From IMG/VR virus record IMGVR_UViG_3300029258_000630, positions 1 to 20,108 of that record: a stretch of DNA of 20,108 nucleotides. One strand, written 5' to 3'. The position numbers and the translations under genes are program-made. Source of the DNA: a virus. The notes under the pieces were generated by a model. The model had not been told where the DNA came from. It saw only the letters and a list, made by a program, of their open reading frames with translations, and did not search any database. This document shows positions 1,126-8,179 of the stretch, piece after piece (the stretch's first letter is position 1; the number at the start of each line of letters is the position of its first letter).

Positions 1126-1163
1126 AAAAAACTGTTGACAACGGCTCTTTTTTAATCTAAGAT
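1126..1163 (+). promoter_or_regulatory. Promoter P1 (sigma70-like, A-tract plus TTGACA/TAAGAT)
   Basis: A perfect -35 box TTGACA lies at 1135-1140. A 17-bp spacer separates it from TAAGAT at 1158-1163, which matches 4 of 6 bases of the -10 consensus. Six As at 1126-1131 upstream resemble an UP element. Transcription would start near 1170. The same A6-CT-N-TTGACA block recurs at promoter P2. Downstream lies a structured region without an obvious ribosome binding site, which suggests that P1 drives an RNA gene. Confidence 0.65.
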
Positions 1164-1169
1164 AATCTC

Positions 1170-1384
1170 GGAGCGTGTCGGAGTTTGCGGCTCTAATCGC
1201 TTTGCGAGGCTATTCACATACGGCACGAAGCATACCGCAAATATGCGGATACACGACATTCCTTGTGGGTGGAAGTGACCGGATAGCCCCGAATTTTCTA
1301 CGCCGTACTTATGGTGCGGTTGCCGGTCATTGGCTAGTGCTTTTGATGCGGCTTTAAATCCCGCTAGGTGTAGCGGGTTCTTTA
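1170..1384 (+). ncRNA. Candidate structured phage RNA of about 215 nt
   Basis: The segment begins at the predicted start site of P1 and ends at an intrinsic terminator. Three helical domains can be drawn by hand. Domain 1: GTGTCG (1175-1180) with CGACAT (1254-1259), extended by GGA/TCC with a two-base bulge, enclosing TTTGCGG (1184-1190) with CCGCAAA (1235-1241). Domain 2: TGACCGG (1276-1282) with CCGGTCA (1323-1329), enclosing CCGTAC (1303-1308) with GTGCGG (1314-1319). Domain 3: the terminator hairpin. It matches no RNA class I recognise: no tmRNA, RNase P or 6S hallmark motifs were seen. A 60-codon GTG-started frame (1175-1357) runs through it, but has no ribosome binding site and unconvincing composition. 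Confidence 0.5.
1360..1384 (+). terminator. Intrinsic terminator of the candidate RNA
   Basis: A 7-bp perfect stem, CCCGCTA (1360-1366) with TAGCGGG (1371-1377), has a GGTG loop and is followed directly by TTCTTT. It closes the transcript predicted from P1. Confidence 0.7.
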
Positions 1385-1558
1385 ACAACACACCTCGTAG
1401 ACCGCTCATAGATGTCAATAATGGCGAGGTTTCTTTGAATAAAAGGGTGTTCTTGGCCGTTCTCACATAGGAAAAGAATGGCACGGTTTCCTTGTATAAC
1501 CGGGTAATCAGTCCGCAAACAAGGTGAGCCCCGATAATATCGGGGTTTCTTTAACAAC
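1378..1558 (+). repeat. Four degenerate hairpin/TTTCTTT units, spacing 53-59 bp
   Basis: A TTCTTT-like core appears at 1378, 1431, 1488 (as TTCCTT) and 1547, each just after a G-rich 3' stem arm. The second and third units align over 28 bases (1420-1447 and 1477-1504) with 22 identities, sharing AATGGC, GGTTTC and ATAA blocks. The first and fourth share TTCTTTAACAAC exactly (1378-1389 and 1547-1558). Stems preceding the cores include ACCTCG/CGAGGT (1392-1397/1425-1430), CCGTTCT/AGAATGG (1457-1463/1475-1481, with a G-T pair) and the 1529-1545 hairpin. They could be tandem terminators, decayed small-RNA genes or processing sites. Function unknown. Confidence 0.5.
1529..1552 (+). terminator. Intrinsic terminator (CCCCGAT/ATCGGGG plus TTTCTTT)
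   Basis: Seven perfect pairs, CCCCGAT (1529-1535) with ATCGGGG (1539-1545), have a three-base loop and are followed by TTTCTTT. It is the strongest hairpin of the degenerate repeat series and probably stops read-through from the RNA gene. Confidence 0.65.
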
Positions 1559-1565
1559 TAGCATG

Positions 1566-1602
1566 CCGCCTAAGCCTCTGATGCAAGCTCAATTTTAGGC
1601 GG
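1566..1602 (+). other. Hairpin upstream of the tRNA
   Basis: CCGCCTAA (1566-1573) pairs perfectly with TTAGGCGG (1595-1602) around a 21-base loop, eight bases before the tRNA. There is only a weak T-rich tail (TCGTTTAT), so it may be a poor terminator or a leader structure for tRNA processing. A 12-codon frame starting at 1563 overlaps it but has no ribosome binding site. Confidence 0.4.
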
Positions 1603-1610
1603 TCGTTTAT

Positions 1611-1681
1611 GCCGGTATAGCTGAGTGGTTTAGCTCTGGTTTTGTAAACCAGTGACGGGGGTTCGATACCCTCTACCGGCT
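1611..1681 (+). tRNA. tRNA-Thr (anticodon TGT)
   Basis: A complete cloverleaf can be drawn. The acceptor stem is GCCGGTA (1611-1617) with TACCGGC (1674-1680), seven perfect pairs. The D arm is GCTG/TAGC with one G-T pair and loop AGTGGTT. The anticodon stem is CTGGT/ACCAG with loop TTTGTAA, giving anticodon TGT for ACA codons. The T arm is GGGGG/CCCTC with loop TTCGATA. The discriminator is T and CCA is not encoded. G1-C72 and C2-G71 agree with threonine identity in bacteria. It stands alone among hairpins between the small-gene cluster and the late genes. Phage tRNAs often supplement host codon supply; that use here is inference. Confidence 0.93.
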
Positions 1682-1717
1682 CATAATAGCTTGCCGTCCA
1701 CGTGGCGGTGTAGTAAA

Positions 1718-1740: not shown

Positions 1741-1767
1741 GGTAATATAAACCCTTTCTTAAATCTA

Positions 1768-1796
1768 GGGCGGTCAAATCTGACTGCCCTTCTTTC
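1768..1796 (+). terminator. Intrinsic terminator (GGGCGGTCA/TGACTGCCC)
   Basis: A 9-bp stem with one G-T pair, GGGCGGTCA (1768-1776) with TGACTGCCC (1781-1789), has loop AATC and is followed by TTCTTTC. It closes the tRNA region and lies immediately against the start-less HTH-like reading frame, so transcripts from upstream would largely end before that frame. Confidence 0.7.
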
Positions 1797-2051: not shown

Positions 2052-2090
2052 AAAAAACTATTGACAGACCTTATTTAGACGTAGTATCAT
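2052..2090 (+). promoter_or_regulatory. Promoter P2 for the late structural genes
   Basis: TTGACA at 2061-2066, an 18-bp spacer and TATCAT at 2085-2090 (5 of 6 to consensus) form a strong sigma70-like promoter, with six As just upstream at 2052-2057. The predicted start is near 2097, giving a leader of about 24 nt with AAGGGA as ribosome binding site for the portal gene. The block at 2052-2066 matches P1 in 14 of 15 positions. Confidence 0.7.
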
Positions 2091-7069: not shown

Positions 7070-7087
7070 GTGAGAGGAAAAGAGATT

Positions 7088-8179
7088 ATGAGAGATATTT
7101 ACGCGAGACAAGTGCAAATTGAAAAGGCTTTGAAAGAAGCTAACCCGGTGCAAAAATCACATTGTCATCTGGAGAAAGAGGGTTTATGCCCTAAGTCATT
7201 TGTCAAGCCATGCGGTAAACAAACGGGAATTGAATACATTAAAGTTGATGAAGATAAAAAGAGCGGTCAGATAATGACCGTTAGAAACTGGACACAGCAC
7301 GGCGCGGATAACGAGCCTTACTGCTGGGGGCGTTTACGTTCTGCTCATGAGGCAACTTGGGAAGCTAATTTTCAAGCAAACAAAAAGCGTATCAAGAAGA
7401 TGTTTCCTAAAGGTAGACCTGATGACGATGCACCAAAGTTCGGTCAAACGGGATACTTGCTAGGCAACGGCCCCGGTCTTAAAATTAATAAAGACTTGCT
7501 TAAACATGTTAAAGGTGATATTTGGGGTTGTAACAGGCACGGCGATTTAGATATTGACTTAGATTACTACATGGTTTTAGATGCTAAGTGTAAAGATTAT
7601 GAAACGTCTATCAAGAAACTTAACGATGATGTTATACCAGTTATGAGCGTGTTTGCTAATCCTGAAGTAACGAAACATTTCAATTCTGAAAACATCTTGT
7701 GGTACAACGTCTGGGGTGCCGGTTCAAAGTTGTGGAGTAACGTAAATAGGCTTGCAGAAAAGAAATTTGGCGTTGATAGCTTCTCTAAACTCGATAGCGG
7801 TTTTAACGTCTGTTACTCGATGTTACATGCAATGTATAAAATGGGATACGAAAAAATTGTCATACTCGGTATGGATTATGCTTTCTCGGGCGGTTATGAA
7901 TACTTCAACTCAGATGAACCGTTTATTGTAAAAGACAAAAGCGGCAAGTTTTTGATGGATGAAAAAATCAGAGCCAAATACGAGGGTATGGGTGGGATTT
8001 TCGAGACTAAAGATATGTATAATCAGGTGGCGTTTACCTGTAAGCCAATGAAGATGGCATTAACAATGATGCAGACTGCCATGTTTTGGCTAAAAGATAA
8101 TGTTGAGATAGTTAATTGCACAGAGGCGGGAATAGATTTAGGGATACCGAATGAGCCGCTCGAAAGAAATTTGGGATGA
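7088..8179 (+). CDS. DUF115 / MptE-like protein, possible glycosylation enzyme (363 aa)
   Basis: The core resembles the DUF115 domain shared by archaeal 6-hydroxymethylpterin diphosphokinase MptE and bacterial flagellar Maf proteins. It has a nucleotide-binding-like glycine motif GNGPGLK (residues 126-132), DIWGCNR (144-150), DYYMVLDAK (about 157-165), and ILGMDYAFSG (about 259-268). An N-terminal part of about 110 residues has several Cys/His (CHLEKEGLCP, PCGKQ, a later PYCWG) and may bind metal. ATG 7088 is chosen over GTG 7070, since AGAGGA lies between them and 7070 touches the terminator. The activity is not established; transferring or activating a sugar or nucleotide for virion or host modification is an inference. 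The 3' end overlaps the next gene by 29 bases. Confidence 0.68.
   Translation: MRDIYARQVQIEKALKEANPVQKSHCHLEKEGLCPKSFVKPCGKQTGIEYIKVDEDKKSGQIMTVRNWTQHGADNEPYCWGRLRSAHEATWEANFQANKKRIKKMFPKGRPDDDAPKFGQTGYLLGNGPGLKINKDLLKHVKGDIWGCNRHGDLDIDLDYYMVLDAKCKDYETSIKKLNDDVIPVMSVFANPEVTKHFNSENILWYNVWGAGSKLWSNVNRLAEKKFGVDSFSKLDSGFNVCYSMLHAMYKMGYEKIVILGMDYAFSGGYEYFNSDEPFIVKDKSGKFLMDEKIRAKYEGMGGIFETKDMYNQVAFTCKPMKMALTMMQTAMFWLKDNVEIVNCTEAGIDLGIPNEPLERNLG

Follow-up and report, generated by a model that had tools for sequence, protein, structure and literature searches.

The interval 1126-1384 probably holds the promoter and the first third of a non-coding phage operon of about 630 nt, in which an abiF-type RNA (U5) lies directly 5' of a tRNA-Thr gene. 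The window analysed here is the whole stretch of 20,108 nt of IMG/VR record IMGVR_UViG_3300029258_000630. The abiF RNA serves as antitoxin in the AbiF/Abi_2 type III toxin-antitoxin system, whose toxin AbiF is a ribonuclease of phage defence with kinship to the ancestor of Cas13. We suggest that the leader of this phage tRNA operon releases an RNA that mimics the antitoxin and acts against AbiF, and we favour this explanation, taken as a whole, with moderate confidence. The order of the operon, namely promoter, structured leader, U1, U2-U4, abiF-type RNA, tRNA-Thr(UGU) and terminator, is well supported (Table 1).

Table 1. Elements of the tRNA operon and of the region up to the portal promoter; positions are those of the window.
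Feature	Positions	Strand	Basis
Sigma70-type promoter TTGACA-17-TAAGAT of the non-coding operon	1135-1163	+	Same relative place in L001/L002
Structured leader of about 190 nt (the three domains of the preliminary description), specific to this phage	1170-1356	+	Fold z -1.7; absent from L001/L002
U1: hairpin CCCGCUA-GGUG-UAGCGGG plus tail UUCUUUAACAAC; conserved leader element	1360-1389	+	Tail like rrn boxA
U2: hairpin ACCUCG...CGAGGU, flanks like abiF RNA (AACACACC ... GGUUUCUUU)	1392-1442	+	Model R1, E = 0.16
U3: third hairpin unit, tail GGUUUCCUUGUAUAA	1455-1499	+	Repeat with U2
U4: hairpin GCCCCGAU-AAU-AUCGGGGU plus tail UUCUUUAACAACUAG	1528-1561	+	Fold z -2.9
U5: abiF-type RNA, AAGCCUCU-GAUGCAA-GCUCAA between CCGCCU and AGGCGG	1566-1603	+	RF03085, model R1
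tRNA-Thr, anticodon UGU	1611-1682	+	ARAGORN; Rfam 64.9 bits
CCCTTTCTTAAATCT, between tRNA and terminator	1752-1766	+	Identical in all three phages (window, L001, L002)
Probable operon end: 9-bp hairpin GGGCGGTCA-AATC-TGACTGCCC plus TTCTTTC	1768-1796	+	Sequence and fold
Separate promoter TTGACA-18-TATCAT for portal/late genes	2061-2090	+	Kept in L001/L002

Exact-TTGACA promoters of this form occur twice in the 20-kb window, at 1135 and 2061, both on the plus strand, while about 0.5 per strand are expected in shuffles. The interval does have its own promoter, as the preliminary description had claimed, and it occupies the same relative place in two related phages. These relatives are IMG/VR contigs (L001 and L002) whose portal proteins share 55-57% identity with the one encoded in the window. 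Upstream of the portal gene they carry a TTGACA-17-TACAAT promoter, a short leader with U1, tRNA-Thr(UGU), a terminator (a hairpin with TCTCTTTTTT, in the same place as 1768-1796) and a second promoter. Searches via the portal, adaptor and capsid proteins gave no close phage in IMG/VR beyond these two and nothing in bacterial genomes, and DNA patterns for U1 or for the tRNA-terminator block matched the same two contigs alone. The promoter lies about 45-50 nt from the hairpin in the relatives and about 195 nt in the window; the extra 150 nt or so correspond to the three helical domains described earlier. No abiF RNA was found in L001 or L002. Except for the abiF RNA and the leader material inserted in the window, L001 and L002 share the layout of the operon.

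Two further observations concern the relatives. The tRNA leader of L001 (4551-4767) has several extra small hairpins, such as CATCTTTAAGATG, GGTGTGACGACACC and GCGCAAAACGTTGTGC, thus the tRNA leader expands in more than one lineage. The reverse complement of the shared 15-mer CCCTTTCTTAAATCT is similar to the leaders with ribosome sites (GATTTAAG...TTAAGAAAGGG) of small L001/L002 genes, hence the tRNA trailer could be antisense to them; such a small-gene partner is absent from the window.

Searches of Rfam, phages and plasmids gave no homologue of the 190-nt leader part (1170-1356), which L001/L002 also lack. In the Rfam covariance search of the interval tRNA alone was above the cut-off, with abiF below it; the interval itself matched no Rfam class, in agreement with the earlier statement that it belongs to no known one. 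The matches to MicC and rdlD were far below the cut-off and were set aside as chance. There was no covariance match of manA or other phage tRNA-cluster RNAs of Rfam in 1100-2120, up to E 5, no degenerate tRNA was found in the leader, and the phage DNA search gave tRNA matches alone among the matches listed. The region 1169-1384 folds slightly better than shuffles (z = -2.1; 5 of 200 as good), and without the final hairpin z = -1.7, with 12 of 200 shuffles as good. The claim of a highly structured RNA thus holds to some extent for the whole and is weak for the 190 nt upstream of the hairpin.

The interval was also described as non-coding, which agrees with what we find: the GTG at 1175 is preceded by no usable ribosome site, and the open reading frames of the interval have no match in Pfam or PHROG. 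That the interval is instead a gene, with ORF 1175-1357 encoding a small protein of 60 aa, is very improbable. This reading could call on a tblastn match (E 3e-5, 39 aa, 44%) to Mycobacterium phages of the genus Pipefishvirus. However, the matching frame is a GC-rich open frame on the strand opposite an annotated gene, with a promoter-like TTGACA...TATTGT inside the match, and the ORF, which has no ribosome site, is unmatched in plasmids, L001/L002, Pfam and PHROGs. We judge this unexplained match to be due to chance. In phages Philly and Obutu the matching frame is antisense to gp12 and the gp12-gp13 gap.

The preliminary description took the hairpin at 1360-1377 as the terminator of a stand-alone RNA of about 215 nt ending at 1384. 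The hairpin is present and stable (-12 kcal/mol, z -3.5), but as a terminator it is unremarkable: its tail is no more than TTCTTT, and terminator-like sites in 4 kb number 2 versus 3.9 expected in shuffles. It is, in addition, conserved. Local alignment of U1 to the leaders of L001 and L002 gives a score of 34, the best of 1000 shuffles reaching 27-28, and the stem differences are compensated with pairing kept: the leader of the relatives reads CCCCG-UAGGUGUA-CGGGG-UCUUUGACAAUUAG and that of the window CCCGC-UAGGUGUA-GCGGG-UUCUUUAACAACA. The loop UAGGUGUA and the tail UCUUURACAA are common to all three phages. Since the counterpart in the relatives continues into the tail UCUUUGACAA and lies inside the tRNA leader, it is unlikely that an RNA has its 3' end at U1. 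No promoter-like site was found between 1163 and tRNA-Thr, and with the hairpin standing between the only promoter and the tRNA, transcription would have to pass through U1.

These results bear on what U1 is. The original view was a free-standing small RNA of 1170-1384 that stops at the hairpin 1360-1377, the tRNA being transcribed from another start. It has on its side the good promoter at 1135-1163, the stable final hairpin followed by TTCTTT and a fold weakly better than shuffles, and partial termination may occur at U1 with the rest of the polymerases reading through. Still, we regard it as quite unlikely, since terminator-like sites are no commoner than in shuffles, a terminator has no need of a conserved loop (UAGGUGUA) or of a RACAA tail, the relatives have U1 between promoter and tRNA, and no second promoter precedes the tRNA. 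Nor is the 215-nt unit supported as a stand-alone RNA: it is not conserved, and more hairpin units and the abiF-type RNA follow directly downstream. U1 is best regarded as a leader element, whose boxA-like tail possibly helps the polymerase through the untranslated leader. In its full form this reading, which has a real chance of being right though we place it somewhat below an even one, takes U1 and its copies as boxB-boxA-like antitermination sites, where a hairpin is followed by a boxA-like sequence (UUCUUUAACAA) recruiting NusB/S10. The polymerase would thereby cross the untranslated structured leader into the tRNA. Leaders of rrn operons have a hairpin and then boxA (PMC6614801), and the same order is seen here, with a boxA-like sequence after a hairpin in the leaders of both the window (UUCUUUAACAAC) and the relatives (UCUUUGACAAUUAG). 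The tails UCUUUGACAAUUAG and UUCUUUAACAACUAG match rrn boxA, boxA-like sequences are found in 36 of 105 rrn leaders as against 2.2 in shuffles, and in each of the three phages U1 is placed after the promoter and before the stable RNA. U1 thus resembles the rrn leader element (boxB-boxA-boxC) in that a stable-RNA operon has in its leader a hairpin and then a tail like UCUUURACAA; it differs in that the operon is a phage tRNA operon without boxC. On the other side, the boxA motif is short and degenerate, boxC is absent, and stem-UYUCUUUU tails occur also in phage abiF RNAs. Antitermination would account for U1 without any counter-defence role, and it is compatible with the release of an antitoxin-mimicking RNA from the same leader.

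After U1 come three further hairpin units, 53-59 nt apart and each with a GGUUUCYUU end. U2 and U3 form a 44-nt direct repeat (73% identical, spacing 57); the fold of U2 taken alone is no better than shuffles (z -0.5), and that of U3 has z -0.4. For the tail common to U2-U4, an equally good reading is an abiF-type tail (stem-UYUCUUUU), belonging to an abiF-type element. U2 is the second-best match in the whole window of a covariance model (R1) described below. U1-U4 were rejected as full abiF RNAs, with the Rfam model finding U5 alone and model R1 giving E 0.16 for U2 and E 7 for U4. An array of CRISPR repeats was rejected too, because the stems differ between units and the 3' tail alone is common to them.

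The abiF-type RNA U5 lies about 180 nt downstream of the interval of the preliminary description, in the same transcript, and ends 7 nt before tRNA-Thr. Against RF03085 it scores 25.3 bits, with E 2.5e-4 for the 20-kb record and that family and E 0.013 for 236 nt and all families. This is below the curated gathering cut-off of 37 bits, hence we name it abiF-type and do not file it as a formal member of the family. Its signatures AAGCCUCU and GCUCAA are exact, with their 7-nt spacing, at 1571-1592. The outer 6-bp stem CCGCCU/AGGCGG, kept with other bases, and the inner AGC/GCU helix are both present. Model R1, built from 54 phage abiF RNAs with the window excluded, has its top match in the window at 1559-1615 (E 6.4e-5), and the covariation of the outer stem is real in these 54 relatives. 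A DNA search of 1126-1610 against 72,556 plasmids returned a single match, which is exactly U5, on the Synechocystis plasmid CP101711; U5 and the abiF RNA of this plasmid have the same 22-nt core, UAAGCCUCUGAUGCAAGCUCAA. The plasmid RNA scores 45 bits and lies downstream of a TTGACA and just upstream of an Abi_2 frame broken by a stop. No match to an Abi_2 gene (PF07751) was found in the 20-kb record. Thus U5 has the signatures, spacing, outer stem and inner helix of the abiF RNA (RF03085; AbiFr, RCd22); unlike that RNA it scores below the cut-off, occurs in one copy without an AbiF gene and is joined to the leader of a tRNA instead of a toxin gene.

Such orphan RNAs are frequent in phages. 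A search pattern for the abiF core, biased towards exact cores, matched at least 120 stretches of IMG/VR viral contigs, and 86 among the at least 120 matches listed have the 7-nt spacing seen in the window. Our sample consists of the first 120 stretches of the scan; several records are fragments, and some phages are related to each other. The RF03085 cut-off was passed by 43 of 48 sampled IMG/VR records and by 10 of 11 cultured phages, in most of which the RNA is unannotated. An Abi_2 gene accompanied the abiF RNA in 1 of 48, 0 of 24 (including the window phage) and 0 of the 11 cultured phages, so 82 of 83 records are without it. Unannotated abiF RNAs without an Abi_2 gene are found in the phages S-SZBM1, Lolly9, Baka, Thibault, Acj61, CRP-143, CGphi29 and Mimi and in two Aeromonas T7-like phages (L283 and L288). 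In cultured phages the RNA lies in some cases within a tRNA cluster and in others upstream of terminase or between head genes.

The position next to a tRNA is recurrent. Of 59 non-redundant sites, 14 have a same-strand tRNA or tmRNA no more than 200 nt away; positions drawn at random from these records give 2.5 (maximum 10 in 200 trials). The RNA is often found 2-7 nt upstream of tRNA genes; annotated examples of the link are S-CREM1, S-SZBM1, Lolly9 and Mimi. The gap is 4 nt in S-CREM1 (tRNA-Gly), S-SZBM1 (tRNA-Ala) and Lolly9 (tRNA-Asn) and 7 nt in the window (tRNA-Thr). For RNAs immediately 5' of a tRNA, the core mostly ends 15-19 nt short of it (19 in the window), hence the RNA itself stops a few nucleotides before the tRNA. 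Since the remaining 45 of the 59 sites are not beside a tRNA, tRNA processing cannot be the general route. The closest described case is the abiF sRNA of Synechococcus phage S-CREM1 (PMC9964418, OP535465), likewise an orphan RNA just upstream of a phage tRNA; unlike U5 it scores above the cut-off, and its tRNA/ncRNA cluster also has wcaG and manA RNAs. The authors give it no role beyond a possible function during infection (PMC9964418). In the literature searched, a toxin-less phage abiF RNA is discussed for S-CREM1 alone, without a tested role.

AbiF is a HEPN ribonuclease toxin that is neutralised by its RNA, which acts in trans and binds the protein directly (PMC12373285; review PMC12737573). 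We propose the following sequence of events. RNA polymerase would read through U1, perhaps aided by the boxA-like tail. RNase P, cutting the 5' end of tRNA-Thr, would separate the abiF-type RNA from the tRNA and give it a defined 3' end. The freed RNA would then bind and silence the HEPN ribonuclease AbiF of the host in trans, like the bacterial antitoxin RNA. The phage, having the antitoxin RNA without the AbiF gene, would thereby possess a counter-defence decoy, and the neighbouring tRNA-Thr may also help translation during infection. Among the roles offered by the preliminary description (regulator, packaging RNA or decoy), decoy was a fair guess for the neighbouring abiF-type RNA. Both the counter-defence function of U5 and the steps of release and silencing we infer from the arrangement described above. 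We put forward more tentatively, as possible rather than probable, that many kinds of phage carry orphan abiF RNAs as AbiF inhibitors, with the tRNA leader and release by RNase P as a recurrent form and the array of related hairpins U1-U5 perhaps serving as decoys for several toxin variants. The absence of abiF RNA from L001 and L002 and the score of U5, 25.3 bits versus the cut-off of 37, count against the role proposed for U5.

The abiF-type RNA might alternatively be a functionless leftover of an AbiF module once present in the phage. AbiF systems do occur in phage genomes, as one contig (L218) shows with an abiF RNA adjoining an Abi_2 gene, and the window copy is under the Rfam cut-off. 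We nevertheless consider a leftover unlikely: a toxin remnant was found neither here nor in 70 of the 71 other IMG/VR records searched, the loop signature is perfect, the changed stem bases still pair, and the position 2-7 nt 5' of different tRNAs is repeated in unrelated phages. An RNA that counters AbiF, as we propose for U5, would have precedents. In principle it resembles the RNA anti-CRISPRs (Racr; PMC10651486), where a phage has a mimic of the RNA of a defence RNP without the protein; Racr, unlike U5, mimics CRISPR repeats, and its function was tested, whereas U5 is known from sequence. It also resembles the ToxI mimicry of phage PhiTE escape mutants (PMC3475682), in which a type III antitoxin-like RNA of the phage silences a host ribonuclease toxin. 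The ToxI of PhiTE, in contrast to U5, consists of ToxIN pseudoknot repeats from selected escape mutants and is not a stable tRNA-operon element.

A DNA region of phage sk1 is reported to protect phage 712 from AbiF, to judge by a title (Rince et al. 2000) in the references of PMC12737573. We rejected this region as an abiF RNA, with none recognisable in sk1 or 712, and this too counts against the role proposed for U5. Separately, sk1 has a second, weaker tRNA at 27645-27717 (39.9 bits), which phage 712 is without.

Orphan abiF RNAs in many phages, repeatedly at tRNA 5' ends, suggest an unrecognised RNA-based counter-defence and a simple processing route. This is directly testable, because cultured phages of Mycobacterium smegmatis (Thibault, Baka, Lolly9), Synechococcus, Acinetobacter and Aeromonas carry the RNA, mostly unannotated.

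Some further features of the window were observed. Between the tRNA operon and the portal promoter there is an open frame (1784-2155) without a clear start; it has a helix-turn-helix-like stretch LSKEQIAAFFEVDTRTIERYV and looks like a gene fragment. The small protein of 831-1112 is weakly similar to restriction-alleviation proteins of the Lar family: PHROG 599 gives E 3.5e-4, and Pfam PF14354 gives E 9e-4, which falls short of the PF14354 cut-off. Directly after the major capsid gene, 7070-8179 encodes a protein with an MptE-like domain (PF01973, E 3.9e-10), which is kept in L002 (73% over 193 aa) and is unusual among head genes.
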